Shown piece after piece: positions 24,371 through 53,802 of a DNA stretch of 53,802 nt. Under the pieces are notes generated by a model. That model ran no database searches and was not told the origin of the DNA. It worked only from the letters and a program-made list of their open reading frames with translations. Position 1 is the stretch's first letter. Each line of letters starts with the position of its first letter. The position numbers and the translations under genes are program-made. This stretch comes from a virus. Location of the stretch: positions 1 through 53,802 of IMG/VR virus record IMGVR_UViG_3300024344_000017; one strand, given 5' to 3'.

Positions 24371-24913
24371 TTAATGACTGGATATATCTAGCCAATCATT
24401 TAGTTCTTTCGCCAAAGACTCAGTTTCTTTCGGTGTGTTCAAAGAATAATGTTCTATGTTTTTAGCTAGTCTTTGATTAGTGCATATATTGTTTATCTTT
24501 GTTATTCTTGATTTCTTGAATTTTTCTGATTGATTGTCGCCTCTGTGATTATGCCTAAAGTCTAGCGTTTCAGGTATATTCTCTAACACTATAATTCTTG
24601 TGTCATAAGAATTACATAATTTCTCTAAGTTTGTGCCAGTAAATAACCTATCACCCTCAAACAGTATGTTCTTTTCAAACTTATCTATGTATTTATCAAA
24701 GTCGCTTTGAACCGCCATAGAAAGTTTATCTGTCCCTGCGAACACTTCTTGTCTTTCGTATATACCTAAAATACTGATATTCCTTTTAGTTTCAACATAT
24801 CCACGCAACAAACCATACTTAAATTTTGTTTTCGGTTGTATAAACCCCAATAAAGACCTAACTAGTGTTGTCTTACCAGTTGCAGGGACACCGCCTATAG
24901 CTACGCATTTCAT
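24371..24913 (-). CDS. P-loop kinase, predicted 5-hydroxymethyluracil DNA kinase
   Basis: A 180-aa P-loop protein with Walker A GGVPATGKTT (residues 7-16), a base-recognition-like region (LGIYERQEVFAGTD) and Walker B NILFEGDRLF. Its ATG overlaps the end of the pyrophosphorylase-like gene (ATGA). P-loop kinases in such operons phosphorylate hydroxymethyluracil in DNA before a second enzyme replaces the phosphate with an amine or amino acid (known for the putrescinyl- and related thymine phages). Function here is inferred from context; a generic nucleotide kinase is the alternative. Confidence 0.7.
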   Translation of the reverse strand: MKCVAIGGVPATGKTTLVRSLLGFIQPKTKFKYGLLRGYVETKRNISILGIYERQEVFAGTDKLSMAVQSDFDKYIDKFEKNILFEGDRLFTGTNLEKLCNSYDTRIIVLENIPETLDFRHNHRGDNQSEKFKKSRITKINNICTNQRLAKNIEHYSLNTPKETESLAKELNDWLDISSH

Positions 24914-25890
24914 AATGTTCCATACTCCAATGTTCCTGTATCTAAGAAAACCTCATATAATTCTTTCCTTATAGCTTTGCTTTCATGTAATGGTTGTTCA
25001 AGCGTTTCTTCTCTTGCGTCCCAAAACACTTGCCAATCTATACCTGCCCAATCATCAGCTTCTACTTTCTTAATTTCTTCTGCTTGTCTATCTAGATAAT
25101 ACCCTAAATATCTACCTTGTTTTTTTCTAAATATCTTTTTGAAGCTACACAAAAGAGTTTCCATTTGGTATAAATCCATATCCACTTTGTATTCTTTTCC
25201 AATTTCTTCTCTAATTCTTAATGCCTGTATTTCTAAGTGCTGTGTAGTTATAGGTTTTAGTTTTTTATTAATAAGTTCATCGTGGCACAAAGCATATAAC
25301 AATCCATTACGATGCGACTTGCTACCGCTATAATCAGATAGTTTTAAGTTATCAGGTAAGACATTTACACCCACACAATCTTTCAATGTTTGCAAATAAT
25401 ACCAAGTAGAGTATCTGCCGAACTTGTGCATATTGAGAATTATGCTTTGCCAAACGAAATCAAAAGACTTTTCTTGTAGCTTATCAAACCTATGTCGCTG
25501 TGTTTTCTCTGGGTTATTGTGCATAATCCATCGTTTATAACTGGCAAATTGGTCTGGTAAATGCCCTTTATTCCATTTCGTGTCAGTTTGATAACGCAAC
25601 CTGTGATAGTTTTCATTGTTCCATTTTTTTAATCTGTTTTGGTCAACCAACTCAAAATCAGGGAACTCATTCCATATAATCCAAGCTGTAGGCAAATGAT
25701 AAGTAGTGCCATATATCCAAGCTATCCAATACTTTTGTTCTATATTGTGCTCATACCTGTCAAATAAATAATTCAACAACCACAATGCAGGGTCGCAGTC
25801 TTTGTGTTCTATAGACCAAACGCACCATTCTTTGAATGCTAATTCTCTATTTTCCTGCAACCTATAATCCACGATACCCTGACTCATCAA
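24910..25890 (-). CDS. Putative thymine pyrophosphorylase / amino acid:DNA transferase
   Basis: A 326-aa helical protein with many aromatic residues (CDPALWLLNYLFDRYEHN, YWIAWIYGTTYHLPTAWIIW, FGRYSTWYYLQTLKDCVG, YSGSKSHRNGLLYAL). This pattern and the neighbours recall the alpha-glutamyl/putrescinyl thymine pyrophosphorylase families (aGPT-Pplase), which displace a phosphate or pyrophosphate from activated hydroxymethyluracil in DNA and attach an amine. Overlaps its neighbours on both sides (29 and 4 bases). I could not confirm an active site by eye, so the call depends partly on the operon. Confidence 0.6.
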   Translation of the reverse strand: MMSQGIVDYRLQENRELAFKEWCVWSIEHKDCDPALWLLNYLFDRYEHNIEQKYWIAWIYGTTYHLPTAWIIWNEFPDFELVDQNRLKKWNNENYHRLRYQTDTKWNKGHLPDQFASYKRWIMHNNPEKTQRHRFDKLQEKSFDFVWQSIILNMHKFGRYSTWYYLQTLKDCVGVNVLPDNLKLSDYSGSKSHRNGLLYALCHDELINKKLKPITTQHLEIQALRIREEIGKEYKVDMDLYQMETLLCSFKKIFRKKQGRYLGYYLDRQAEEIKKVEADDWAGIDWQVFWDAREETLEQPLHESKAIRKELYEVFLDTGTLEYGTL

Positions 25891-27918: not shown

Positions 27919-28839
27919 CTACTTATCTATTAGACTTTCACCCTTTTGTCTAGTTTGTGCTCTTTCTATTTCCGCATCTGCGTCTAAACAATGGTGCATT
28001 TTTTCTCTGTAATAACAAACGATTGATATTCTTTCGTATGCTAGTTTTGCTTTAGTTTCTGTATTAGCGTGGTATTCGTGAACATTGAAGAAACAAACAT
28101 CGCCTGAACGAACATCAAACGCTACTCTGTATCTTGGTATTACTGTGTAAGCACCTTCATATTGACCTGCTTCTAATACAGCTAAATTTCCTAAACCTTC
28201 TGCATAATCTCCTGCATCTACATGCAATGCAGTTCTGAAGTTTTTGTTAACAGTTATAGTCGTGAATACAGTATCTTTGATAAGAAAATCTTTGCTTGTT
28301 TTTTCTGCCATAGCTTTTTGATTGGCATATCTTTCAGGACAGGCTTCTGCAAAAAGTTTATCTATATAGTGTATGTATGGATAAGCGTCTTTGAACTGTT
28401 GAAAATTCTTTTCATACCAAGATGTTTGTCGGCAGTAAGGAAACCTAGCGTTCCTATCAAAAAACCCTACAACACCTGAGTTTACTGTATTGGCTCTTGA
28501 GGTATTGCTCAAAGTTCCATCTTTTTTGATACCGCTAAACCTTATTTTACTTAAATCGCCTATGTCCCAATCGGTTTTGGTTTGTTCAGATATTATTCCG
28601 CCTGCAGCACCTCTGTTGTTAGTTGGCGCAGCAGCATTTCTTAATGCTTTCCATGCATCTTTGCATAAACTAGAAGGTATTTTGTTTTTTCTGAAAAAAA
28701 ATAATGGCTCACCATTTTCACCATAGGCATCACAATCATCTCTTATGACTGTGTCGTAGTCTTTTTCTGTTATCCACTCTCCTTTACGCTTTGCTATCTC
28801 TTGTTTTGTGTAGTGTGGTTTTAAATTATAAACTTTCAT
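27919..28839 (-). CDS. TET/JBP-like 2-oxoglutarate/Fe(II) dioxygenase
   Basis: A 306-aa protein. The C-terminal half has a double-stranded beta-helix dioxygenase pattern: FRTALHVDAGDYAEGLG with the iron-binding His-x-Asp, LEAGQYEGAYTVIPRYRVAFDV, FFNVHEYHANTE with the distal His, and YERISIVCYYREKM with an Arg for 2-oxoglutarate. These match TET/JBP-type enzymes, which hydroxylate thymine or 5-methylcytosine in DNA. With kinase and transferase genes next door and no methyltransferase, thymine is the more likely substrate. Overlaps the ParB-like gene by 14 bases. Confidence 0.82.
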   Translation of the reverse strand: MKVYNLKPHYTKQEIAKRKGEWITEKDYDTVIRDDCDAYGENGEPLFFFRKNKIPSSLCKDAWKALRNAAAPTNNRGAAGGIISEQTKTDWDIGDLSKIRFSGIKKDGTLSNTSRANTVNSGVVGFFDRNARFPYCRQTSWYEKNFQQFKDAYPYIHYIDKLFAEACPERYANQKAMAEKTSKDFLIKDTVFTTITVNKNFRTALHVDAGDYAEGLGNLAVLEAGQYEGAYTVIPRYRVAFDVRSGDVCFFNVHEYHANTETKAKLAYERISIVCYYREKMHHCLDADAEIERAQTRQKGESLIDK

Positions 28840-33416: not shown

Positions 33417-33442
33417 ATAAGTATAAATTGAAGGGGAATAAA

Positions 33443-34321
33443 ATGAAAAAAAATGAAGTGTTCAAAAAAATCCAAACTAAGATTTTAGAACTGATGGAAA
33501 CTGAAGGTACTAATTGGACTAAATCTTGGCTCGGTTGTGGTCGTCCGACCAACGCTATAACTAAAAGACAATACAGAGGTATGAACCACTTTTGGTTATC
33601 AGTTCAAGGTTTCACATCAAACGAATGGGCAACTTTTAAACAATGGTCTAATGCAGGTCACAAAGTTAAGAAAGGTTCAACTGCCAGTCATGTCGTTTTT
33701 TGTGAAGTAAAAGACAAAAAGAAAGAATGGCTTAATGAAAAAGAAAGGGCAGAATTTCTTGAAACTGGCAAATTGCCTAAATACTGGCTTTGGAAAGTAT
33801 TCCCAGTATTCAATGCAGACCAAATAGATGGTTATGTTTCAGACAACATTGTTGAAAATCAAAAAACAGAACTAACTATTGATGAAGCATCAGAAATACA
33901 ATCTTTCATAGATAACTGCAACGCTGAAATAACTCATGGTGGTGATGTAGCTTGTTATATACCTAGTAGTGATAAAATCAATATGCCTGAAATGAAGTCT
34001 TTCTTTTCTGATGTTGATTACTTTTCCACCCTACTGCACGAACTAACTCATTGGACTAGAGAAAAGGGCAGAACTAATAGACAAGACAAAGACCTTGAGT
34101 ATGCTCAAGAAGAACTGGTCGCCGAAATTGGTTCAGCTTTCCTTTGCCAGTTGCTTGGTGTAGAAAAAACTGTAAGACCCGACCATGCTCAATACCTAAA
34201 CGCTTGGAAAGAAAGAATAGCGGATAGTGAAAAAGCAATGATAAGTGCTTTCAGCGATGCACAAAAAGCAGTAGATTTTTTAACTAATTTACAAGAGAAA
34301 AAAGAGAGAGAGGCTGCATAG
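33443..34321 (+). CDS. ArdC-like antirestriction protein with zincin domain
   Basis: A 292-aa protein. N-terminal ssDNA-binding (DUF1738/ArdC-N) domain: ILELMETEGTNWTKSWLGCG, NAITKRQYRGMNHFWLSV, FKQWSNAGHKVKKGSTASHV. C-terminal metallopeptidase: FSTLLHELTHWTREKG with the HExxH zinc motif and YAQEELVAEIGSAFLCQLLG with the third ligand (Glu). ArdC protects incoming DNA from host restriction. Start at 33443 is set by AAGGGG; a reading from 33428 would need a TTG. Under its own operator-promoter, so expressed early. Confidence 0.88.
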   Translation: MKKNEVFKKIQTKILELMETEGTNWTKSWLGCGRPTNAITKRQYRGMNHFWLSVQGFTSNEWATFKQWSNAGHKVKKGSTASHVVFCEVKDKKKEWLNEKERAEFLETGKLPKYWLWKVFPVFNADQIDGYVSDNIVENQKTELTIDEASEIQSFIDNCNAEITHGGDVACYIPSSDKINMPEMKSFFSDVDYFSTLLHELTHWTREKGRTNRQDKDLEYAQEELVAEIGSAFLCQLLGVEKTVRPDHAQYLNAWKERIADSEKAMISAFSDAQKAVDFLTNLQEKKEREAA

Positions 34322-37013: not shown

Positions 37014-37392
37014 ACATATCTGGATTAGTCAATTCTATCAGATTTTCCATTACTTTTGCAGATGCTCTATTAACTCTAGTTTCTATCAGCTTCGGTTTCA
37101 TCAAAGCAAGATTGTTTAAATCGTGCCTAGCGAATTTGTTTCTTAGTTCTGTTACTGCCCTTTGTGCCTCTGATTTCTCTGCATTGAGTTCGTCTAACTG
37201 TGCTTCGTGTCTTTGTTGGTTCTCTAAATAATTCTTTATAGACTCGTTTTGTTCTTCTATTTTACCTTCAAGAACAATAGCATTACCACGCAAGACAGAT
37301 AACTGTTCACTTAGATATTTAATATACATACCTGAAGCACTTGCAGTTATTACCAACAGACCGCCTAATATCAGACTTAACTTAAACCCCAT
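36979..37392 (-). CDS. Inner-membrane spanin-like protein (i-spanin)
   Basis: A 137-aa protein with an N-terminal membrane helix (LSLILGGLLVITASASGMYI, about residues 5-24) and a long periplasmic coiled coil (VLEGKIEEQNESIKNYLENQ to QRAVTELRNK, about residues 38-108). The C-terminal segment ARHDLNNLALMKPKLIETRV is like the conserved end of phage i-spanins. Overlaps the cyclase gene by 11 bases and the o-spanin by 35. Confidence 0.8.
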   Translation of the reverse strand: MGFKLSLILGGLLVITASASGMYIKYLSEQLSVLRGNAIVLEGKIEEQNESIKNYLENQQRHEAQLDELNAEKSEAQRAVTELRNKFARHDLNNLALMKPKLIETRVNRASAKVMENLIELTNPDMFEPKENAENSN

Positions 37393-39151
37393 ATATCCTC
37401 ACAGTATTCGCTTTTCCCTTAACTTTAATATCATTAATATATCTTAAGTCATATTGACTTACATTTGCAGTATTTTCACCGATTAATATATCTTCTTTTT
37501 GTTCTTTCGTAGCACTTTCCAACCTTGCTGCTAGATTAACGCTATCTCCTATAGCTGTGTAATCAAATCTTGTAGCACTACCCATATTGCCAATAACTGC
37601 ATCTCCTGTATTTATACCAATGCCTATAGCAATTTCTGGGAGTCCTTCTTCTAACAACTCTTTGTTTAACTCTTTCATGTTATCTATGATTTGAAACGCA
37701 CAAACGATTGCATTATCTTCATGGTTTTTTTGGTCTAAAGGTGCATTGAATACTGCCATCATGGCATCACCGATATACTTATCTACCATACCACCAGTTT
37801 GTTGCACCGCTTTTTGTTGTGCTGTTAGTGCTTTGTTCATAATATATGTCACTTGTTCAGGCGGTAATGACTCTGACATACTTGTGAACCCTCTGACATC
37901 AGTAAATAGAAAAGTCGCATATCTTTTTTCTCCGCCCAATTTCAACAATTCAGGATTAGATTGCAGTCTTTTTACTTGTTTCGGGTCTAAATAATGTTCA
38001 AATTGTTTTTTAATTTGCTGTCTTAGTAGGTATTGCTGTCTAAAATTGAGATAAAATGCTACTGAACCTGCTATAAATTGGGTTATGAGCGTGTAAGAAA
38101 CATCTATTAGTATGCCTTCTTTAGCAGTATAAACCCCATAAGAGCCTGTTAGAGCCATTATAACTACAAATGATACTAGACCTGAGGTAATGCCTAAAGA
38201 CCTCACTAAGAGCCATATAAGACCTACAGAGAGCAAATATATACACAACTCCAACGCTAAACTATAATCAGGTATATAAGGACTGTTTTGTATCAACAAA
38301 GACTCAGCTAGTGCTGCTTGTATATAATGAGGCTCTAATAATCCAACTGGAGTAGCTACTTGTGGCATTATGCCTTTAGCAGTGACACCTACGAAAACAA
38401 ATTGACCTGCGACCTGCATATCTTTCAAAGATGTTTCATGTGGAACAACCCAAGAAACCCATTTTCTTCCCATACTATCTGTTTTAACAGGCGGAACACC
38501 TTTCACAGTTATTTCTTGTATGCCATTTTGATTAGTTTTGATTATGTATGTATCAGAACCAGTCAACGATTTAAGGACTTGTGTTCCAAAAGAAGCTAAC
38601 CAACCATCAGGAGTCCTATATAACATAGGTATTCTCCTAACTAGATTGTCTATGTCTGCAGGTGCAGATGCTATGCCTTGTAAGGTGTAATCGGTTATTG
38701 GTTCTACATTTTCAACAGTTCCTGCAGAAAGATAGCCACCTATATCTTCTCCTAGAATGACAGTACCAGTAGTTTGCGGATAGTTTTGATTGTTGTTTTC
38801 AAACAAAGCAATAACTGATGGTGATAGACTTAAAGCATTGCTGAACTCTACATCACCACCCATTCTATCTTTGTGTGGGAAACCTATAACCCAACCGACA
38901 CCCATAGCACCTTTGTCTAATAACTGTTGATGTATCTCTGCTAATCTTTGTCTCGGTAAAGGATAACCACCTTCAGCATCAATATCTTCTTCAGTTAAAT
39001 TGAGTATTGCGAAATTACCTGATGGCATAGGTGTTTCTACCAAAGCGTCAAAGGTTTTTAGTTTTATGGTTTCGGTAATACTAGATTGGAATATAAATGG
39101 CAGTGATAATACTGCTAACAATAATAATCCTTGTGAATACTTATTATTCAT
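37382..39151 (-). CDS. CHASE2-domain membrane adenylate cyclase (class III)
   Basis: A 589-aa sensor enzyme, unusual in a phage. Residues about 8-24 membrane helix; 25-290 extracytoplasmic CHASE2 domain (LKTFDALVETPMPSGNFAIL, VGWVIGFP, IDNLVRRIPMLYRT); three membrane helices (about 297-318, 323-341, 347-369); short linker; class III cyclase 405-589. The catalytic site looks intact: metal Asp418 (FTDVRGFTSMS) and Asp462 (KYIGDAMMAVF), adenine-specifying Lys458 and Thr532 (FDYTAIGDSVNLAARLE), Asn539 and Arg543. It would make cAMP in response to a periplasmic signal. Located directly downstream of the FecR gene. CHASE2 cyclases beside FecR proteins are known in bacteria. Confidence 0.93.
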   Translation of the reverse strand: MNNKYSQGLLLLAVLSLPFIFQSSITETIKLKTFDALVETPMPSGNFAILNLTEEDIDAEGGYPLPRQRLAEIHQQLLDKGAMGVGWVIGFPHKDRMGGDVEFSNALSLSPSVIALFENNNQNYPQTTGTVILGEDIGGYLSAGTVENVEPITDYTLQGIASAPADIDNLVRRIPMLYRTPDGWLASFGTQVLKSLTGSDTYIIKTNQNGIQEITVKGVPPVKTDSMGRKWVSWVVPHETSLKDMQVAGQFVFVGVTAKGIMPQVATPVGLLEPHYIQAALAESLLIQNSPYIPDYSLALELCIYLLSVGLIWLLVRSLGITSGLVSFVVIMALTGSYGVYTAKEGILIDVSYTLITQFIAGSVAFYLNFRQQYLLRQQIKKQFEHYLDPKQVKRLQSNPELLKLGGEKRYATFLFTDVRGFTSMSESLPPEQVTYIMNKALTAQQKAVQQTGGMVDKYIGDAMMAVFNAPLDQKNHEDNAIVCAFQIIDNMKELNKELLEEGLPEIAIGIGINTGDAVIGNMGSATRFDYTAIGDSVNLAARLESATKEQKEDILIGENTANVSQYDLRYINDIKVKGKANTVRIYGV

Positions 39152-39165
39152 TTTTCTTATATTAG

Positions 39166-39194
39166 ATTATACATTTTATTGATTTTCTTTTTAA
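39166..39194 (-). promoter_or_regulatory. Candidate promoter of the cyclase gene
   Basis: On the minus strand: weak -35 TTAAAA (39194-39189), 17-base spacer, consensus -10 TATAAT (39171-39166). The predicted start is about 8 bases before the ATG, leaving almost no leader. The 45-base gap between FecR and cyclase is the largest in this cassette. AT-rich DNA makes chance matches common. Confidence 0.35.
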
Positions 39195-39196
39195 CA

Positions 39197-40315
39197 TTAA
39201 GAACCTTGTTGTATTTTGATAGTAGTATCACTACCGCCATTAACCTTGATAACATTAGAAACACCATCTTGTATAAAAATAATTGTATATGCACCACTTC
39301 CATCTACATCTACCCTTGCATTACTGCTGACATTTCTTCTGAAACTTATCATCTGTCCTGCAATAATCGTAGTTATCTGCGTATCAGGGTCTTGCCCTAC
39401 TAATGTTCCAGTTATATTTATGCCAGTAGCTTGTGCCAAAACATCTTCTTCGTCATCAATAGCTAAAGCGTCTAAGATATTTAACAAATCCTCAAGGAAA
39501 TTCACATCAAGGTAGTTTATATCCAATTCTGTAAATTCTAAGTCTGCCTCATTGTCCAAAAAATCTTCTGCTAAAAAATCTATATCTAAGTCTGCGAAGT
39601 CCAAATAATCAGCACTACCTGTAGAAGCACTAGCATCTATCATTTGTTCTGTTTGTGCAGGTGGGTTCACTATAAGCATATTGTCTATGAGTTCTAGAGT
39701 TAAATCTAATACGACTGGCGCAGATGGTGAAGTTTCAAACATTGTAGCAGTCGTGGCTTCATAAGGTTTATTTAAGATTACGCTACCCATAGCGGTAGAT
39801 ACCTCTATCTCTCCTGAGGAAATCCCATTAGCATCTGGCAATAAGATAATTAGACTACGACCTAGTTCATCTACAGTAGTAGTAAAATCTGTGCCACGAA
39901 TTGCTATGTTTGCAGTAGGTGTTTTTAAGATGATATTGCGTTTATCTATCTTATTTAGAGAGCCTGTTATAAAACGAGCAGTTCCACTAGCGAAATTGAT
40001 TGCCATTTTCGCTTTGCTAGGGTCTGGGTCATAGATGTATTCGTCTATAACTAAAGAAGAATGTTCAGTTAGCCTAACTACTGAGTCATCTTCAAACTCA
40101 ATAGCAATCCTGCCATTACTGGTTCTTACATCGTCATAACTTTGTATTCCAAAATTTACTGCAGGAATAAAATCGTCCCCACGAATAACTTTTGTATATC
40201 CTTTTAGTTCGCTAACTTGACCTATATCTTCAGCAAGAGGTACTTGTGCCTTGATCGTTTTGCTGAATACAGACAGTGCCATTACTACCAATAGAAATGA
40301 CTTTAAGCCAGTCAT
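39197..40315 (-). CDS. FecR-domain exported protein
   Basis: A 372-aa protein. Start at 40315 gives a clean signal peptide (MTGLKSFLLVVMALSVFSKT, cut near Ala23); upstream in-frame ATGs lie deep in the previous gene. Residues about 60-195 are a FecR domain: DDVRTSNGRIAIEFEDDSVV, SGTARFITGSL, IILKTPTANIAIRGTDFTT. No cytoplasmic sigma-binding helix is present, so this is the stand-alone periplasmic or surface type, not the iron regulator. Residues about 265-325 are very acidic (EDFLDNEADLEFTELDINYL). Overlaps the curlin-like gene by 86 bases; next gene is the CHASE2 cyclase. Confidence 0.87.
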   Translation of the reverse strand: MTGLKSFLLVVMALSVFSKTIKAQVPLAEDIGQVSELKGYTKVIRGDDFIPAVNFGIQSYDDVRTSNGRIAIEFEDDSVVRLTEHSSLVIDEYIYDPDPSKAKMAINFASGTARFITGSLNKIDKRNIILKTPTANIAIRGTDFTTTVDELGRSLIILLPDANGISSGEIEVSTAMGSVILNKPYEATTATMFETSPSAPVVLDLTLELIDNMLIVNPPAQTEQMIDASASTGSADYLDFADLDIDFLAEDFLDNEADLEFTELDINYLDVNFLEDLLNILDALAIDDEEDVLAQATGINITGTLVGQDPDTQITTIIAGQMISFRRNVSSNARVDVDGSGAYTIIFIQDGVSNVIKVNGGSDTTIKIQQGS

Positions 40316-40940
40316 TATCCAATGTTGACGCTTGGTCAATATTAAATGTTCTGTTTCCGCCTGTATGGTCAAGATAGAAGTATCCGCCTGCATACCCATC
40401 TCCGTCATAAGTTATCGTATTATCTGAACCATCTATATCCATAAAGTTCGTCGCTCCATCTACATCTATAGCTGCTGTAATAGAGTTATCTGAACCTTGC
40501 ACAGTCCAGTCTAAGTCTAATGTTTCAGCCAATGCTGCTATTGCATGATTTAAGGTGAATGTGTTTGAACTTCCAGTAACATTTACTTGCAGATTTGACG
40601 AGTCCGCACTAAAAGTGTTCGTAGGGTCTGTTTGCATATTGAATACATTGCTATCACCAGTAAATTCAAAGAACCCAGTGTAGCTATCTGCCCATATATC
40701 ACCGAGGAATTTGTTTGACGAGCCAATCTGATTTATGTCTAGCAACATAGTTGTGCCATCTAAATCTAAAGCAGTCATAGAACCAGCTTGTGCGTTCGCA
40801 CCACCTATAATGTTTCCACTTCCCATTTGTTCTATATCTATGTTGGAAGTAGCACCACTTTGATCTATAAAGACTTCATTATCAGCTGAATATACAGACG
40901 AAACACAAAGCACCATAAACAACGCTATTATTTTCTTCAT
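40230..40940 (-). CDS. Curlin-like secreted repeat protein (CsgA/CsgB type)
   Basis: A 236-aa protein with a signal peptide (MKKIIALFMVLCVSSVYSA). The mature part has imperfect curlin repeats of the form (V/I)xxxQxGxxN: FIDQSGATSNIDIEQMGSGN, LDINQIGSSNKF, LQVNVTGSSNTFTL, WTVQGSDNSITAAID, FNIDQAS, VCIQQNDQGT. Repeats are more degenerate and Asp-rich than E. coli CsgA. Two Cys flank the C-terminal repeat. It would cross the outer membrane through CsgG and could form an amyloid fibre or a soluble adhesin. Start at 40940 follows GGAG 9 bases upstream; overlaps csgG by 4 bases. Confidence 0.82.
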   Translation of the reverse strand: MKKIIALFMVLCVSSVYSADNEVFIDQSGATSNIDIEQMGSGNIIGGANAQAGSMTALDLDGTTMLLDINQIGSSNKFLGDIWADSYTGFFEFTGDSNVFNMQTDPTNTFSADSSNLQVNVTGSSNTFTLNHAIAALAETLDLDWTVQGSDNSITAAIDVDGATNFMDIDGSDNTITYDGDGYAGGYFYLDHTGGNRTFNIDQASTLDNDWLKVISIGSNGTVCIQQNDQGTSTSC

Positions 40941-41725
40941 TTTTTCACGCTCCAAAGATTTGCGTCTATACCTTCACGAATTGTTTGGAGTACTGCGGTT
41001 TCTATCGCTGCTTGGAGAGCAATATTGACGGATTCGTTTTCTGTCATACCATTCTCTACTTCAACTAACTCTGTGTCGTTTGCCACAAATCTAAATATGT
41101 CTTGGCTAACTCCAACACTTAATATGTTTTTGGTCACCAAAACTTCAGTTAAAATGCGACCAGTAGATACCGATACTGTGCGTAATGATACTATAACTGT
41201 ATCTTGTCTATACTCTTTGGAACTTCCTATCCCTAAATATCTTGCACCAAATCCGCCTGATTTAACATTGCTCTCATATCCTACTACACTTCCTTCCATC
41301 AGTAAACCTGCAAATCGCAATGGCTTTAGCTGTTGATCTTCTTCAAATGATTCCCTTGTGCTTCTTATTATTTGTCGTTCTCTGGTTAAATTATCTAAAC
41401 CAGTTCGCTCTACTACATGGAAAAAACCACTATGATGTAATGCTCTTATTAGATAGGTCTGCGGTGCTTGAGTTATTGCTGTGCTGAATGTGGCGAATTG
41501 ACTGTTACTTCTTCTTTGTCCAGTATCGTCTTTGAATGAGGTTCCGTATATTGCTACAGTAGGTTTTGTAATCGGCACACCTACTTCTGCTAACTCTCCT
41601 ATTAAAAGAGCATTGATTGTAGCTTCTGTTTTCTTTGGTACTTCTTGTATTTTACCATTGATAGCGCAGCTAGAAAGTAAAACTACCGATAGGAATAGTG
41701 ATAACTGTAACACCACCTGTCTCAT
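40937..41725 (-). CDS. csgG: CsgG-like curli secretion channel lipoprotein
   Basis: A 262-aa protein. Start at 41725 gives a signal peptide with lipobox LLSSC (Cys20); an upstream ATG at 41755 would add 10 residues. It follows E. coli CsgG closely: FKDDTGQ, VVERTGLDNLTRERQIIR, MEGSVVGYESNVKSGGFGAR, YLGIGSSKEYRQDTVIVSLR, VSVSTGRILTEVLVTKNILS. In the constriction loop (RRSNSQFATFSTA) the Phe of the E. coli pore (Phe56) is kept as Phe80, but the adjacent Asn is Thr and Tyr51 is not obvious. Forms a nonameric outer-membrane pore for curlin subunits. Gene overlaps csgF by 56 bases. Confidence 0.95.
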   Translation of the reverse strand: MRQVVLQLSLFLSVVLLSSCAINGKIQEVPKKTEATINALLIGELAEVGVPITKPTVAIYGTSFKDDTGQRRSNSQFATFSTAITQAPQTYLIRALHHSGFFHVVERTGLDNLTRERQIIRSTRESFEEDQQLKPLRFAGLLMEGSVVGYESNVKSGGFGARYLGIGSSKEYRQDTVIVSLRTVSVSTGRILTEVLVTKNILSVGVSQDIFRFVANDTELVEVENGMTENESVNIALQAAIETAVLQTIREGIDANLWSVKK

Positions 41726-42182
41726 CGGTAATTGTGAGCGTAATATAATCTCCATCTGTCGTATAACTTATTGTGTTTCCTTCTAATGTTATAGTGCCTT
41801 CTGCACTGGGAGTTTCTCCAAACAAGTTTTCAACAAGCTGTCTGGATAGCTGTGCGTATATACGACTCTCAAGGTTGCGAATGAAACGAGCCAATGTAGT
41901 GTTCTCCGCTTCTCTCTTTAATTCTTCTTGATATGCTTTTATTTCATCTTTAATTGCCTGTTTGCGATTAAATTCTTGATTTTCAATAGTTAAATAATGA
42001 GAACTGGTTCCTACGCCAGAAAAACTAGGACTTTTGAACCTGAATACCATTTCATCGGCTAAAGCAGATTGTATTGATGAAATAAAGACAGCAAAAATTA
42101 TAAACGATATGCCTATAACACCGAACCAATATTCTACTTTTCTATCAGCTTCTATTTGCTTTTTTGTCCTGTTTTTTCTCAT
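41670..42182 (-). CDS. csgF: CsgF-like curli assembly factor
   Basis: A 170-aa protein. A 20-residue basic N-terminal extension precedes a hydrophobic signal (about 20-42) that ends in ALA, the likely cleavage site, so mature CsgF begins DEMVFRFKSPSFSG. This matches the E. coli CsgF N-terminus (TFQFRHPNFGG), the part that inserts in the CsgG channel and forms its second constriction. The C-terminal part (GTITLEGNTISYTTDGDYIT, TLTITDETGGVTVITIP) matches the CsgF tail (NVTDRKTGQTSTIQV). It overlaps csgG in the same order as the channel complex; the long n-region is unusual. Confidence 0.9.
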   Translation of the reverse strand: MRKNRTKKQIEADRKVEYWFGVIGISFIIFAVFISSIQSALADEMVFRFKSPSFSGVGTSSHYLTIENQEFNRKQAIKDEIKAYQEELKREAENTTLARFIRNLESRIYAQLSRQLVENLFGETPSAEGTITLEGNTISYTTDGDYITLTITDETGGVTVITIPIGSFTF

Positions 42183-47937: not shown

Positions 47938-48818
47938 TAGGTATTACTCGCTGCAATGTCCTCAACCGCATGTATAGACAAACTATAGGTACTTGCTCTA
48001 TCTGCCTTCCAATTAAAATTAGATTCAACTAACCTAAACAATCCTTTTGGACTGCTAAACATGACAAAATATCCATCAGTTAAGTCTTTTCTAAGTCTTG
48101 GCTGAGTTTTAACTGCTATGCTAGTTCCTGACTGCGTAGCATCTTCTGTTACTAACAAAAGCTGAAAAGGTTGATGAGATGTGCTGTTGCCACTCAAAAC
48201 ACCTAAATAATCGCCTTTTTTGACAGTTCCTGTTCCAGAACTAACGCTAGTCAATGCTAAACCTGTAGCACCTGCTATATTCTGCCTTACTGTGCAACTA
48301 GCTGTATTACTCTCTGTAGTTAATGTAGTCCCTACTACGATTGTTGTGTTGTTAGTTATAGAACTTATTTTATGTGTGCCATTATTTACTTCATTTGTAG
48401 CACCAGTAATATGTATAAAATCACCTGCTATCAAGCTACCGAATATAGCTGTTCCTGCAGTTATCGTAGAACCGCTAAATGAAAGAGTTTCACTTGTATC
48501 ATCTACCCTGCGTGAAGCAGTCATGTGTGTTTGATTATAAGTTCCTTGATTAGTTTTCGCATCAGGGTCGCTTAATTGAAAAGAGTTTACAGGACCTTTG
48601 CACTCTGCCAAAAATGCCTGCCACTCAACGACTTGTGTTCTACTCATGGGTGGCAAAGTTAGCTGCGCTCTCCAATAAGTATTGGCAAACTCTTGTGTGT
48701 ATTGCTGACCAGTAAATGGACTAACTGTTGTTCCTATTGTTCTTATTAACTCCCATTCACTTTGCATAAAACCTACATTTGTAGGCATTGTTACTATGTT
48801 GTTTGTGCTAGTTGTCAT
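47937..48818 (-). CDS. Distal tail protein, DUF2460-like, with inserted beta domain
   Basis: A 293-aa protein. N- and C-terminal parts (ANTYWRAQLTLPPMSRTQVV, FQLSDPDAK; then SPKGLFRLVESNFNWKADRA) are the two halves of a distal tail or DUF2460-like fold. Between them (about 110-205) is a Thr/Ser-rich insertion that looks like an extra immunoglobulin-like or beta domain (ITNNTTIVVGTTLTTESNTA). It starts 4 bases inside the tape measure stop. Confidence 0.7.
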   Translation of the reverse strand: MTTSTNNIVTMPTNVGFMQSEWELIRTIGTTVSPFTGQQYTQEFANTYWRAQLTLPPMSRTQVVEWQAFLAECKGPVNSFQLSDPDAKTNQGTYNQTHMTASRRVDDTSETLSFSGSTITAGTAIFGSLIAGDFIHITGATNEVNNGTHKISSITNNTTIVVGTTLTTESNTASCTVRQNIAGATGLALTSVSSGTGTVKKGDYLGVLSGNSTSHQPFQLLLVTEDATQSGTSIAVKTQPRLRKDLTDGYFVMFSSPKGLFRLVESNFNWKADRASTYSLSIHAVEDIAASNT

Positions 48819-50806
48819 GTGCCACCTAATAATCCTTTTCTATACGCACCACCTCTAGCTGCTGCTTCAAATACTGCCATTTTGGATGTTTCTGCGATTT
48901 GTGGTAGCATTTTTTGGACTTCTGCTCTAGCAGTAGCACCTACACCCAAAGCAAAGTTATTGTTTTGAACAACAGTAACACCACCACCGCCCATAGCATT
49001 CCTGCTATTCATATTGTTTAAAACTGTTCCACCAGTGTTCGGCATAAATATCTCTGGACCACGCTCTCCTACCAATACTGGTCTGTTAGCTTGTATAGTC
49101 CCACCACCTGCTGCTCCACCAGTACTCAGACCTGAGCCAGTTCTCGGTGCAGATATACCGAATGAACCCAATATAGCATCAACAATAGGTTGTATTACTA
49201 AGAGTTTCATAAAAGTAGAGATAATAGCTGCTACAATCTGTTTGCTCATATCTTTGAATGTTTCTAAAGCGTTTTGTCCTTCCATCAAAGCATTAACAAA
49301 GTTATCAGCAAAATTGTCCGATATTTGTTTTACTCTTTCTCCTATCTCAGCCATTGCTTTACCAACTGGACCAGTAGCCTCTAAAAATTCTTGATAAAGG
49401 GCATTCGCTTGTTCTTGTGATATAGTCCCATCAGCAAGTGCTGCAGTTAGCAAGTCTTGTGCTTTTGTCATATCTTCAATACCTACTGTCCCTGCTTCTA
49501 TTTCACCTCTCAAATCTGTTAGAGTTTTTAATCTTTCTTTAATTGCATCATTCCCTTCTGTAATAGTAATAGTCATTGGGTCTTTTCCATCTTCTTCTGG
49601 GAGAAAACTTTGACCTAAACCTTCAAATGCTGCATTTATTTCGGTCATAACATCTTCTATAGCACCTAGTATTTCATCTCTGAATGCATATATTGTTCCT
49701 GCACCTGCAACTACACCGACACCTGCTGCTGCTGCTGCGACAGGGTTCAACATAGCAGTCGCCATCAAACCTATCAAAGCGGTTCTAGTCGCAACGATTG
49801 CTTTCCTAGCATTAGTCATCGCTACCGCTAAAGTGCCCATAGCAGATGCTAGTGCACCAAATATAGCTTTAGTCACCATAACAGTTGCTATTACACCTAA
49901 CGCTTGAAGTCCTAGTATTACTTTGCCGATGTTTTCGTCCATCGCTTCTAGTACTGAGTTCAAAGTATCTACTGCTTTCGCCATAGTCATACCCAACATT
50001 TCAGCTAAACCATTTTTACCTGAAGTGTCAGCCAATACATCTTGAAATGTAGTAGATAATCTAATCAACGATTGATTTAGACCTGCTTCACCAACCGCAT
50101 TCTGAAATATACTGACTTTATCTGTTAAGTTTGAGAATGAACCTGTTAAAGTGTTTAGTCGGTCTGAGATAGCAGTTTCAAAATTTACTTCTCCTACCTT
50201 TGTTACGAAATCAATAACATTTTCAGTAGTGTTCTTGAAAGTTTCTTCTATAGTTCCTGCAACACCTTTCTCACCAAATCGCAGAGTAATCATGTCTCCT
50301 GCTCTTTCTCCAGTAAAACCCATTAACTGTAGGGATTCCATACTGGTAGTAGATGCTCTGAATATAGCTTTCGCCATTTCATCTATAGATTTATTTTGTG
50401 CTGCTGCTACATTACCGATACCTTCCATTTGTTTCCGTGTCATGCTGACACCAAGTCGCCTAAATTCAATGAAGGCTCTTGTTACTTCTTCAATTTGGAA
50501 TGTTGTGGTTTTTGTGAAATCTAATATATCTTCAAACGCTTTATTAGTTTCTTGTAGGTCGCCTGTGTTGGCTTGTATTGTTGCTCTTAAATCCTCAAAA
50601 GTTCTAGAGGTGGTGACGACACCTGATACAAATTTTGCTAAACCTACTCCTGCTAATACTTTTGATAGATTAGAAAAGGTGAGTAGTGATGCTCTTGCGC
50701 TTTTATTTACAGAACCTAATTGCTTATTTACTTGGTTGAGACCTTTCCTCAGACCTGCTGTTTCTGCTCGTATCTCTACTATTAGTTGATCAACTGGTGT
50801 AGCCAT
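48815..50806 (-). CDS. Tail tape measure protein
   Basis: A 663-aa protein with an N-terminal helical segment (LRKGLNQVNKQLGSVNKSAR), a tail-length core (FEDILDFTKTTTFQIEEVTRA, FRRLGVSMTRKQMEGIGNVA), two hydrophobic Ala-rich stretches (about 290-375) and a C-terminal part (AGGGTIQANRPVLVGERGPEIFMPNTGG) typical of lambda-type tape measures. By the 0.15 nm per residue rule the tail would be near 100 nm. Its ATG overlaps the chaperone extension stop as TAATG. Confidence 0.92.
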   Translation of the reverse strand: MATPVDQLIVEIRAETAGLRKGLNQVNKQLGSVNKSARASLLTFSNLSKVLAGVGLAKFVSGVVTTSRTFEDLRATIQANTGDLQETNKAFEDILDFTKTTTFQIEEVTRAFIEFRRLGVSMTRKQMEGIGNVAAAQNKSIDEMAKAIFRASTTSMESLQLMGFTGERAGDMITLRFGEKGVAGTIEETFKNTTENVIDFVTKVGEVNFETAISDRLNTLTGSFSNLTDKVSIFQNAVGEAGLNQSLIRLSTTFQDVLADTSGKNGLAEMLGMTMAKAVDTLNSVLEAMDENIGKVILGLQALGVIATVMVTKAIFGALASAMGTLAVAMTNARKAIVATRTALIGLMATAMLNPVAAAAAGVGVVAGAGTIYAFRDEILGAIEDVMTEINAAFEGLGQSFLPEEDGKDPMTITITEGNDAIKERLKTLTDLRGEIEAGTVGIEDMTKAQDLLTAALADGTISQEQANALYQEFLEATGPVGKAMAEIGERVKQISDNFADNFVNALMEGQNALETFKDMSKQIVAAIISTFMKLLVIQPIVDAILGSFGISAPRTGSGLSTGGAAGGGTIQANRPVLVGERGPEIFMPNTGGTVLNNMNSRNAMGGGGVTVVQNNNFALGVGATARAEVQKMLPQIAETSKMAVFEAAARGGAYRKGLLGGT

Positions 50807-51018
50807 TAGTCAGGGTATAACTCCATTAGATTTTGAAGTCCTTCTTTATCCATCGGCTGCTTTTCTTCTGCTGCGTGGAATTCTATAAACCCATTCATAG
50901 CACAGTTCAATTCTATAACTGAGCAATTCCAGAATTCTGTCGGAGCCATGCCTATCATTCCCATGCAAATCTCCATATATCTCCTGATTGGCAGGGTATC
51001 TTCAACCTTTACTCCTTT
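50806..51018 (-). CDS. Tail assembly chaperone extension, -1 frameshift product
   Basis: An uninterrupted -1 frame continues from the upstream chaperone past its stop, ending at TAATG with the tape measure start. It encodes about 70 residues (KGVKVEDTLPIRRYMEICMG, MAPTEFWNCSVIELNCAMNG, then a short acidic end), with the MAPTEFW..S..EL motif of the GTA-type second tail chaperone (TAC_2, rcc01693-like). With a slip at the A9 run (51016-51024) the fused product is 183 aa. No good independent ribosome site is visible; a weak internal ATG at about 50971 is the alternative. Confidence 0.8.
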   Translation of the reverse strand, partial: KGVKVEDTLPIRRYMEICMGMIGMAPTEFWNCSVIELNCAMNGFIEFHAAEEKQPMDKEGLQNLMELYPD

Positions 51019-51356
51019 TTTTTTCCTGTTTCTTCTCCTTCTTCGCCTGAATCAGTCGTAAGTGATTGTGTTAAAAGTTCAGCAACTACTCTAGCTGCTT
51101 CAACTATACCTACTTCTCCTACTATTTTTTTTACATCATTTACTTGAATGTCTTGTCCACCACCACGCAATGCAGGTGTAAGAACATTTATAATGTCTGA
51201 CATCATGATATCTGCTTCAGCCATTCGTGTTGCGAGTTTGATTATTCCGCAACCACAAGACTGTTCTATTTGTATTATAGAATCAACAGTTAGTCTAGCT
51301 TTATAGCTTTTGCTACCTAATGTAACATCAACCTGTGCTTTCATTGGATTTGTCAT
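51009..51356 (-). CDS. Tail assembly chaperone (GTA gp10-like)
   Basis: A 115-aa protein: QVDVTLGSKSYKARLTVDSI, IQIEQSCGCGIIKLATRMAE and DIINVLTPALRGGGQDIQVN, the GTA_gp10 pattern. It folds the tape measure during tail assembly. Ends TGKKKE then TAA; the A-run before the stop is a slippery site, so a fraction of ribosomes should make the 183-aa extended form. ATG at 51356 or 51344 (MKAQVDV) is possible; overlaps the previous gene by 29 bases. Confidence 0.85.
   Translation of the reverse strand: MTNPMKAQVDVTLGSKSYKARLTVDSIIQIEQSCGCGIIKLATRMAEADIMMSDIINVLTPALRGGGQDIQVNDVKKIVGEVGIVEAARVVAELLTQSLTTDSGEEGEETGKKKE
51015..51021 (-). promoter_or_regulatory. Programmed -1 frameshift site A-AAA-AAG
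   Basis: The codons GGA AAA AAA AAG GAG TAA end the chaperone. Within them, A AAA AAG is the heptamer used in E. coli dnaX. After a -1 slip the frame reads AAA GGA GTA AAG and continues to the tape measure gene. Frames were checked: stop lowest bases 51009 and 50806 are in different frames, as a -1 shift needs. Confidence 0.75.
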
Positions 51357-51592: not shown

Positions 51593-52000
51593 CTATGCTG
51601 ATGTAAAGGAAACTGCCCCAGAAGATTCTAAAGACACGCTATATGTCGCCTCGCCATTATACTCTCCTGCGTACTCTAATGATGTGACCATAAATGCACC
51701 TGCATAAGTTCCAAAGTCTGGAATTATGAGTTGGAACAGCTTAAAAGCTGTAGCATTCATAGCATCTTTTAGAGTAGTTTCAGACGCTGCATCTGTAAAT
51801 ACACCACTTCCTGATACAGAAACTGAGTGTATTCCACCATCAGCTAACAAAGTACGATTCCCTGAAGAATCTTTGTTAGTGACATCAACCGCTTCGTCAT
51901 TGAGAGTTATGGAAGTAGAACGCAATCCACCAACAGTAGCATAAGTACTACCACTAGTGTTTATTTTGAGCAGTAGTTCCGCTCCTTTCTGTGCTGCCAT
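51593..52000 (-). CDS. Major tail (tube) protein
   Basis: A 135-aa protein: KGAELLLKINTSGSTYATVG, GLRSTSITLNDEAVDVTNKD, FTDAASETTLKDAMNATAF, YSVSLESSGAVSF. This is the pattern of TP901-1 / HK97-type tail tube proteins, which stack as hexamers. Gene order (DUF3168, tube, chaperone, tape measure) is the usual one. Ribosome site GAGGTAA before the ATG. Confidence 0.88.
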   Translation of the reverse strand: MAAQKGAELLLKINTSGSTYATVGGLRSTSITLNDEAVDVTNKDSSGNRTLLADGGIHSVSVSGSGVFTDAASETTLKDAMNATAFKLFQLIIPDFGTYAGAFMVTSLEYAGEYNGEATYSVSLESSGAVSFTSA

Positions 52001-53213: not shown

Positions 53214-53802
53214 TTATCCAACCGCATCGTATATAGAAGAACCTAGACCGCTATGTATGACAAAAGGTGCATATAAACCTTTAATCTGTGGTGGCAATGG
53301 TTGAACAGCTTCATACATATCGCCTCTGTGTTCGTAAAGATAAGCAATGTGTTGTAGCATTCCCATTCTGATAGGTTCAGGCACAGTAAAACTATTAGTA
53401 TATCCTGCGACATAAACCACTTTTATTGCATTTGCTACTCTCAATGCTGTAGGAAATGTTTCGCCATTACGCAAAACTATTCTTGCAGGCTCTCTAACGC
53501 TATCAACATAGTATTTAGTACTTGCAAAGGTAGTTTCTGTATCTGCATCATTGAAAGTGCTAACAGATGTTACGCTTGTTACAGGTGATTTCGGTAAAAC
53601 TATCTTCCTTTTGTAGTAATTCAAGTATGGACCAGTTCTCCAACCTTCCCACAAAGGGTCTTGTGTATCGTCAAACCCATCTAGAAACAAAGTATATGTA
53701 GTAGGCATTAGCGTCCTACCTGTGTGTTCTTCTGCTGTTACTCTCGCTGTTTCAATAAAAGGTCTTATTACCCTTTCGTCTGTGCTATCTTCAACACGCA
53801 GA
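53214..53802 (-). CDS. Head-tail connector protein, C-terminal part (start at 231 after joining)
   Basis: This is the 3' part of the connector gene; its start is at position 231 on the other end of the window. Residues are NYYKRKIVLPKSPVTSVTSV, KYYVDSVREPARIVLRNGET, RVANAIKVVYVAGYTNSFTV, RMGMLQHIAYLYEHRGDMYE, a typical gp6-like connector C-terminus. Total 218 aa after joining. The ATG at 53708 is internal. Confidence 0.9.
   Translation of the reverse strand, partial: LRVEDSTDERVIRPFIETARVTAEEHTGRTLMPTTYTLFLDGFDDTQDPLWEGWRTGPYLNYYKRKIVLPKSPVTSVTSVSTFNDADTETTFASTKYYVDSVREPARIVLRNGETFPTALRVANAIKVVYVAGYTNSFTVPEPIRMGMLQHIAYLYEHRGDMYEAVQPLPPQIKGLYAPFVIHSGLGSSIYDAVG
53640..53802. repeat. Terminal direct repeat, right copy
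   Basis: Second copy of the 163-bp end repeat. The only difference from the left copy (53676 C versus 37 A) falls in the third base of a Gly codon of the connector gene (GGG here, GGT on the left) and is silent. This looks like natural population variation or a read error rather than drift in a functional terminal repeat. Confidence 0.9.

Follow-up and report, generated by a model that had tools for sequence, protein, structure and literature searches.

Comparative sequence evidence for a programmed −1 frameshift in the tail assembly chaperone genes of a marine virus

Introduction

A −1 slip in the tail chaperone gene is a well-known trick of phages, and the protein pair considered here is best known from gene transfer agents. 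The heptamer of phage lambda is G GGA AAG, and the programmed −1 frameshift that yields gpG and gpGT was reportedly described by Levin in 1993 and by Xu, Hendrix and Duda in 2004.

In the lambda system, a small share of ribosomes gives rise to the long form, and the resulting ratio, about 30:1, is important. The short form has the tape measure protein as its binding partner, and the T part has the tail tube protein (PMC5009743). Frameshifting in an HK97-related tail chaperone cluster was measured at 6–7% (PMC3711429). Outside the tail module, E. coli dnaX combines an A AAA AAG heptamer with an upstream Shine-Dalgarno-like element and a downstream hairpin, and its shift shortens the product (PMC3711429). 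The tail chaperones 1 and 2 of RcGTA are encoded by separate genes, g10 and g10.5 (PMC11409702).

The locus described here belongs to IMG/VR virus record IMGVR_UViG_3300024344_000017, of which positions 1 to 53,802 were analyzed (hereafter the window, 53,802 nucleotides); all coordinates refer to the window. An initial annotation of the sequence had proposed a programmed −1 frameshift in its tail assembly chaperone gene.

The tail chaperone locus

The chaperone gene with its A9 run and −1 extension was confirmed, as was the junction with the tape measure gene; all lie on the minus strand, which the initial annotation had left unstated (Table 1). The chaperone gene is preceded by genes for a tail completion gp17 family protein and the major tail tube protein and by an 84-aa ORF that has no family match, and is followed by tape measure, distal tail protein and tail fibre genes. 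As in lambda-type tail chaperone loci, two reading frames sit between the genes for the major tail protein and the tape measure.

Table 1. Features of the tail chaperone locus, in window coordinates
Feature	Position	Strand	Basis or remark
Major tail tube protein (Phage_tail_2, PF06199)	51593..52000	−	E 6.4e-39; PHROG major tail protein
Tail assembly chaperone 1 (Phage_TAC_11, PF11836), 115 aa, normal-reading product	51009..51356	−	Pfam; PHROG
AAGGAG, Shine-Dalgarno-like, candidate stimulator	51035..51040	−	Anti-SD duplex energy
Slippery run A9G, with A AAA AAA and A AAA AAG in zero frame	51015..51024	−	In-register heptamer in 39/39
−1 frame extension, tail assembly chaperone 2 (Phage_TAC_6, PF09550)	50806..51015	−	Pfam; conserved in relatives
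Internal ATG in extension, possible alternative start, not conserved	50974..50976	−	AGGAG 4 nt upstream
Tape measure protein	48815..50806	−	Start overlaps extension stop (TAATG); Pfam, PHROG

The 115-aa ORF matches PF11836 (“GTA-gp10”) with 59.9 bits (E 2.6e-16, curated cut-off 27.8), and its PHROG match is a tail tube/tail protein. The extension comprises 69 codons, GVKVEDTLPIRRYMEIC...LMELYPD, followed by a TAA (50808–50806) that shares its final A with the start of the tape-measure ATG (50806), a one-base overlap. The TAC_2-like motif that the initial annotation had recognized in the extension is replaced by PF09550, Phage_TAC_6, at 31.9 bits against a Pfam cut-off of 23.4. With both members over their curated cut-offs, the pair is of the gene-transfer-agent “tail chaperone 1/2” type, PF11836/PF09550. 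In a Pfam scan at E 0.1, TAC_11 and TAC_6 were the only chaperone families matched, and none of the others, lambda G/T included, was found.

The likeness to lambda gpG/gpGT lies in the position of the locus, in the combination of a short chaperone with a −1 fused long form, in the canonical heptamer near the stop, and in the G GGA AAG used by some marine relatives; the window differs in its protein families and in its A9G site. The system works like that of lambda through another chaperone family: the window genes fall in PF11836/PF09550 and match no other chaperone family, and no sequence homology to lambda G/T was found, which the mechanism does not require.

The slippery site and candidate stimulators

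The 3′ end of the chaperone ORF reads GAA GAA ACA GGA AAA AAA AAG GAG TAA, with the stop TAA at 51011–51009. The GG-A9-GG run that had been described just before this stop is indeed present at 51026–51014, and the A AAA AAG that it was said to hold occupies 51021–51015. Taking either of the overlapping heptamers as the slip point gives an identical fused protein of 183 aa (114 + 69), reading GKKKGVKVEDTLPIRRYMEIC... through ...LMELYPD to TAA. The A9/T9 run by itself is unremarkable in this AT-rich window, which holds two such runs against 2.45 expected from mononucleotide shuffling. Because a run of this kind is expected there, the window alone proves little, and it is the relatives that decide. 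A second in-frame A AAA AAA, within an A8 run at 51125–51132, also occurs in the chaperone gene; a −1 slip at that position runs immediately into a stop.

The AAGGAG is separated by 10 nt from the first heptamer downstream and by 13 nt from the second, and is predicted to form a duplex of −8.8 kcal/mol with the anti-SD sequence, a value not equalled elsewhere in the gene. Anti-SD pairing of comparable strength is found in most relatives, though not in all, and the Glu/Gly-rich C-terminus may favor AAGGAG-like sequence by composition. Downstream RNA structure in the window is not significant (z about 0 to 0.7), and an Rfam search returned no match; several relatives have downstream structure with z of −3 to −4 over 75 nt, which is not a shared feature. 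The site resembles that of E. coli dnaX in its A AAA AAG heptamer and upstream Shine-Dalgarno-like element, but differs in that dnaX has a downstream hairpin and a shift that shortens its product (PMC3711429).

Conservation of the heptamer in marine relatives

Scans of viral contigs yielded 39 distinct marine viral sequences, the window included and some of them near-copies; a search of genome contigs with the fused alignment found no relative, and a literature search on the PF09550/PF11836 names gave nothing useful. The extension lies in the −1 frame in all 39 sequences, near-copies included, and every one of them has a canonical zero-frame X XXY YYZ heptamer within the overlap. Elsewhere in these genes, heptamers occur at 0.004 per codon; for overlaps of 5 to 19 codon positions, this corresponds to about 0.05 expected per sequence. 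The in-register heptamer is therefore not due to chance. Although the stop may be TAA, TAG or TGA and its distance from the heptamer start ranges from 10 to 28 nt, the frame relation remains constant.

The type of heptamer also changes. A AAA AAG is found in most of the marine sequences, A AAA AAA is the sole heptamer in four (L046, L048, L049, L051), and G GGA AAG is present in nine of the 37 rows of a fused-protein tree. Three changes between A-run and G-type sites are needed on this tree, which includes the junction columns and has weak deep branches; at least two are forced by well-supported branches. One supported pair, L055 and L068, differs in heptamer type. Elsewhere the run is shortened, to A7 in L002–L004 and to A6 in L041 and L043, leaving a single heptamer in each.

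These changes bear on whether RNA polymerase, rather than the ribosome, slips on the A9, giving mixed mRNAs in which one added A opens the −1 frame and the fusion arises by transcription. In some bacteria an A9 run is long enough for the polymerase to slip, Thermus dnaX having nine As (PMC3711429), and A9 is kept in many of the relatives. However, the long homopolymer that transcriptional slippage would call for is not kept by all members: the shift persists with A6 or A7 (L041, L043, L002) and with GGGAAAG (nine sequences), as expected of ribosomal slippage and not of polymerase slippage. Because the run shrinks to A6–A7 or becomes GGGAAAG, ribosomal slippage is favored over any need for polymerase slippage, which we consider a very unlikely source of the fusion, although some polymerase slippage may occur at the A9 of the window.

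Fusion or a separate start

The initial annotation held that the extension has no clear independent start. This claim needed testing because of the in-frame internal ATG, which is preceded at 4 nt by AGGAG. A separate gene beginning at this ATG or at a non-standard start would dispense with the fusion; the AGGAG of the window, the separate genes with start–stop overlaps carried by gene-transfer-agent relatives, and public records that annotate the chaperone parts separately would all be in keeping with such an arrangement. Against it, the AGGAG is confined to the window, most relatives having AAAAGA in place of AGGAGA; the Met is replaced by Phe or Tyr in L040, L055 and L068; and the ATG falls inside the conserved domain.

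The six LPxxRY codons, which lie past the slip site and ahead of the first in-frame ATG, are also conserved in the −1 frame. Codon differences, synonymous to nonsynonymous, number 774:242 in this frame, against 37:725 and 82:721 in the alternative frames, tallies that are pair counts over related sequences and show direction rather than a formal test. They indicate that purifying selection acts in the −1 frame on the codons from the slip to the first ATG. Only one of the 39 sequences, L043, has a −1 frame start codon (ATG, GTG or TTG) in the stretch from the preceding stop to LPxxRY, namely a GTG overlapping TGA. The extension is thus without a conserved start of its own, as in the lambda-type arrangement. 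The earlier claim holds for a conserved start; in the window itself, a separate short product from the ATG is possible, though not as the conserved mode. With −1 frame codons conserved upstream of the ATG and the heptamer universal in the marine phages, a separate gene without fusion is likewise very unlikely.

Least credible is a sequencing or assembly error, to which homopolymers are prone, since independent, diverged contigs with varied run lengths and heptamers share the same −1 relation.

Comparison of sequences supports well a programmed −1 frameshift in the window, and the initial proposal is upheld by the heptamer in 39/39 sequences, the switches of type, the selection in the −1 frame and the lack of a conserved start. 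How the genes are laid out, and the support from evolution for reading in the −1 frame, are directly visible in these sequences.

Proposed mechanism

Ribosomal slippage as the cause, its efficiency, and the roles of both products are inferred. It is very probable that a minority −1 slip on A9G gives a 183-aa chaperone 1/2 fusion beside the 115-aa product, with lambda-like roles. Most ribosomes would read normally and produce the 115-aa chaperone. A few would slip −1 on A9G, with tRNA-Lys re-pairing on A AAA AAG or A AAA AAA and the upstream AAGGAG probably aiding the slip, and would then read 69 more codons, so that chaperone 2 is joined to chaperone 1. If the division of labor follows that of lambda gpG and gpGT, the short form would serve as a coat for the tape measure protein, and the long form, which is rare, would bring in the tail tube subunit.

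Named phages and gene transfer agents

The same junction carries G GGA AAC in register in Desulfofustis phage LS06-2018-MD02 and Caudoviricetes sp. ctuI7215 (OP947159, MW202777), and likewise in IMG/VR relatives of the former. In both named records (L023, OP947159; L024, MW202777), the extension is annotated as separate, with an internal start, despite the in-register G GGA AAC before the stop. Ordinary gene callers miss the extension or, as in these records, assign it a false start, and this tail module should therefore be re-annotated.

A cellular comparison set comprised 37 PF09550 loci from Pseudomonadota genomes. As in RcGTA, whose chaperone 1 is in PF11836, these relatives keep the two-gene order of the window. 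Unlike the window, none of the 37 has an A- or G-type heptamer, and in 20/37 the ATG, GTG or TTG of the second gene overlaps the stop (ATGA, GTGA or TTGA; the NTGA pattern), which fits the separate g10 and g10.5 of RcGTA. Thirteen loci have neither heptamer nor NTGA overlap. Six of these (L101, L127, L133, L134, L136, L140) carry, in register at an FPW motif, C CCT TTC or a similar sequence. These six are chaperone pairs of alphaproteobacterial type in which no start precedes the second domain; their C CCT TTC/T sequences are possible independent −1 frameshift sites.

That one chaperone pair is expressed in two modes appears to us as likely as not: an infrequent −1 fusion would serve marine phages and some others, and coupled NTGA genes would serve gene transfer agents and alphaproteobacterial prophages. 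If true, such a switch would mean that the two proteins need not be physically fused so long as the second is available on its own. Gene transfer agents, by their contrast with these phages, allow fused and separate chaperones to be compared in nature.

Other features of the window

A near-identical direct repeat is present at both window ends (1–163 and 53640–53802), with a reading frame shared between the ends, and the record has the appearance of a complete genome, circular or permuted. Genes for an amino acid:DNA transferase (ADDT) and a Tet_JBP oxygenase, at 24910–25890 and 27919–28839, suggest hypermodified phage DNA. An ArdC-like anti-restriction protein, including a zincin-like metallopeptidase domain, is encoded at 33428–34321. 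A curli-type block at 37382–42182 comprises CsgF, CsgG, a curlin-like repeat protein, a FecR-domain protein and a CHASE2-adenylate cyclase; relatives of CsgG are present in Pelagibacter phage HTVC008M and in Methylophilales phages.
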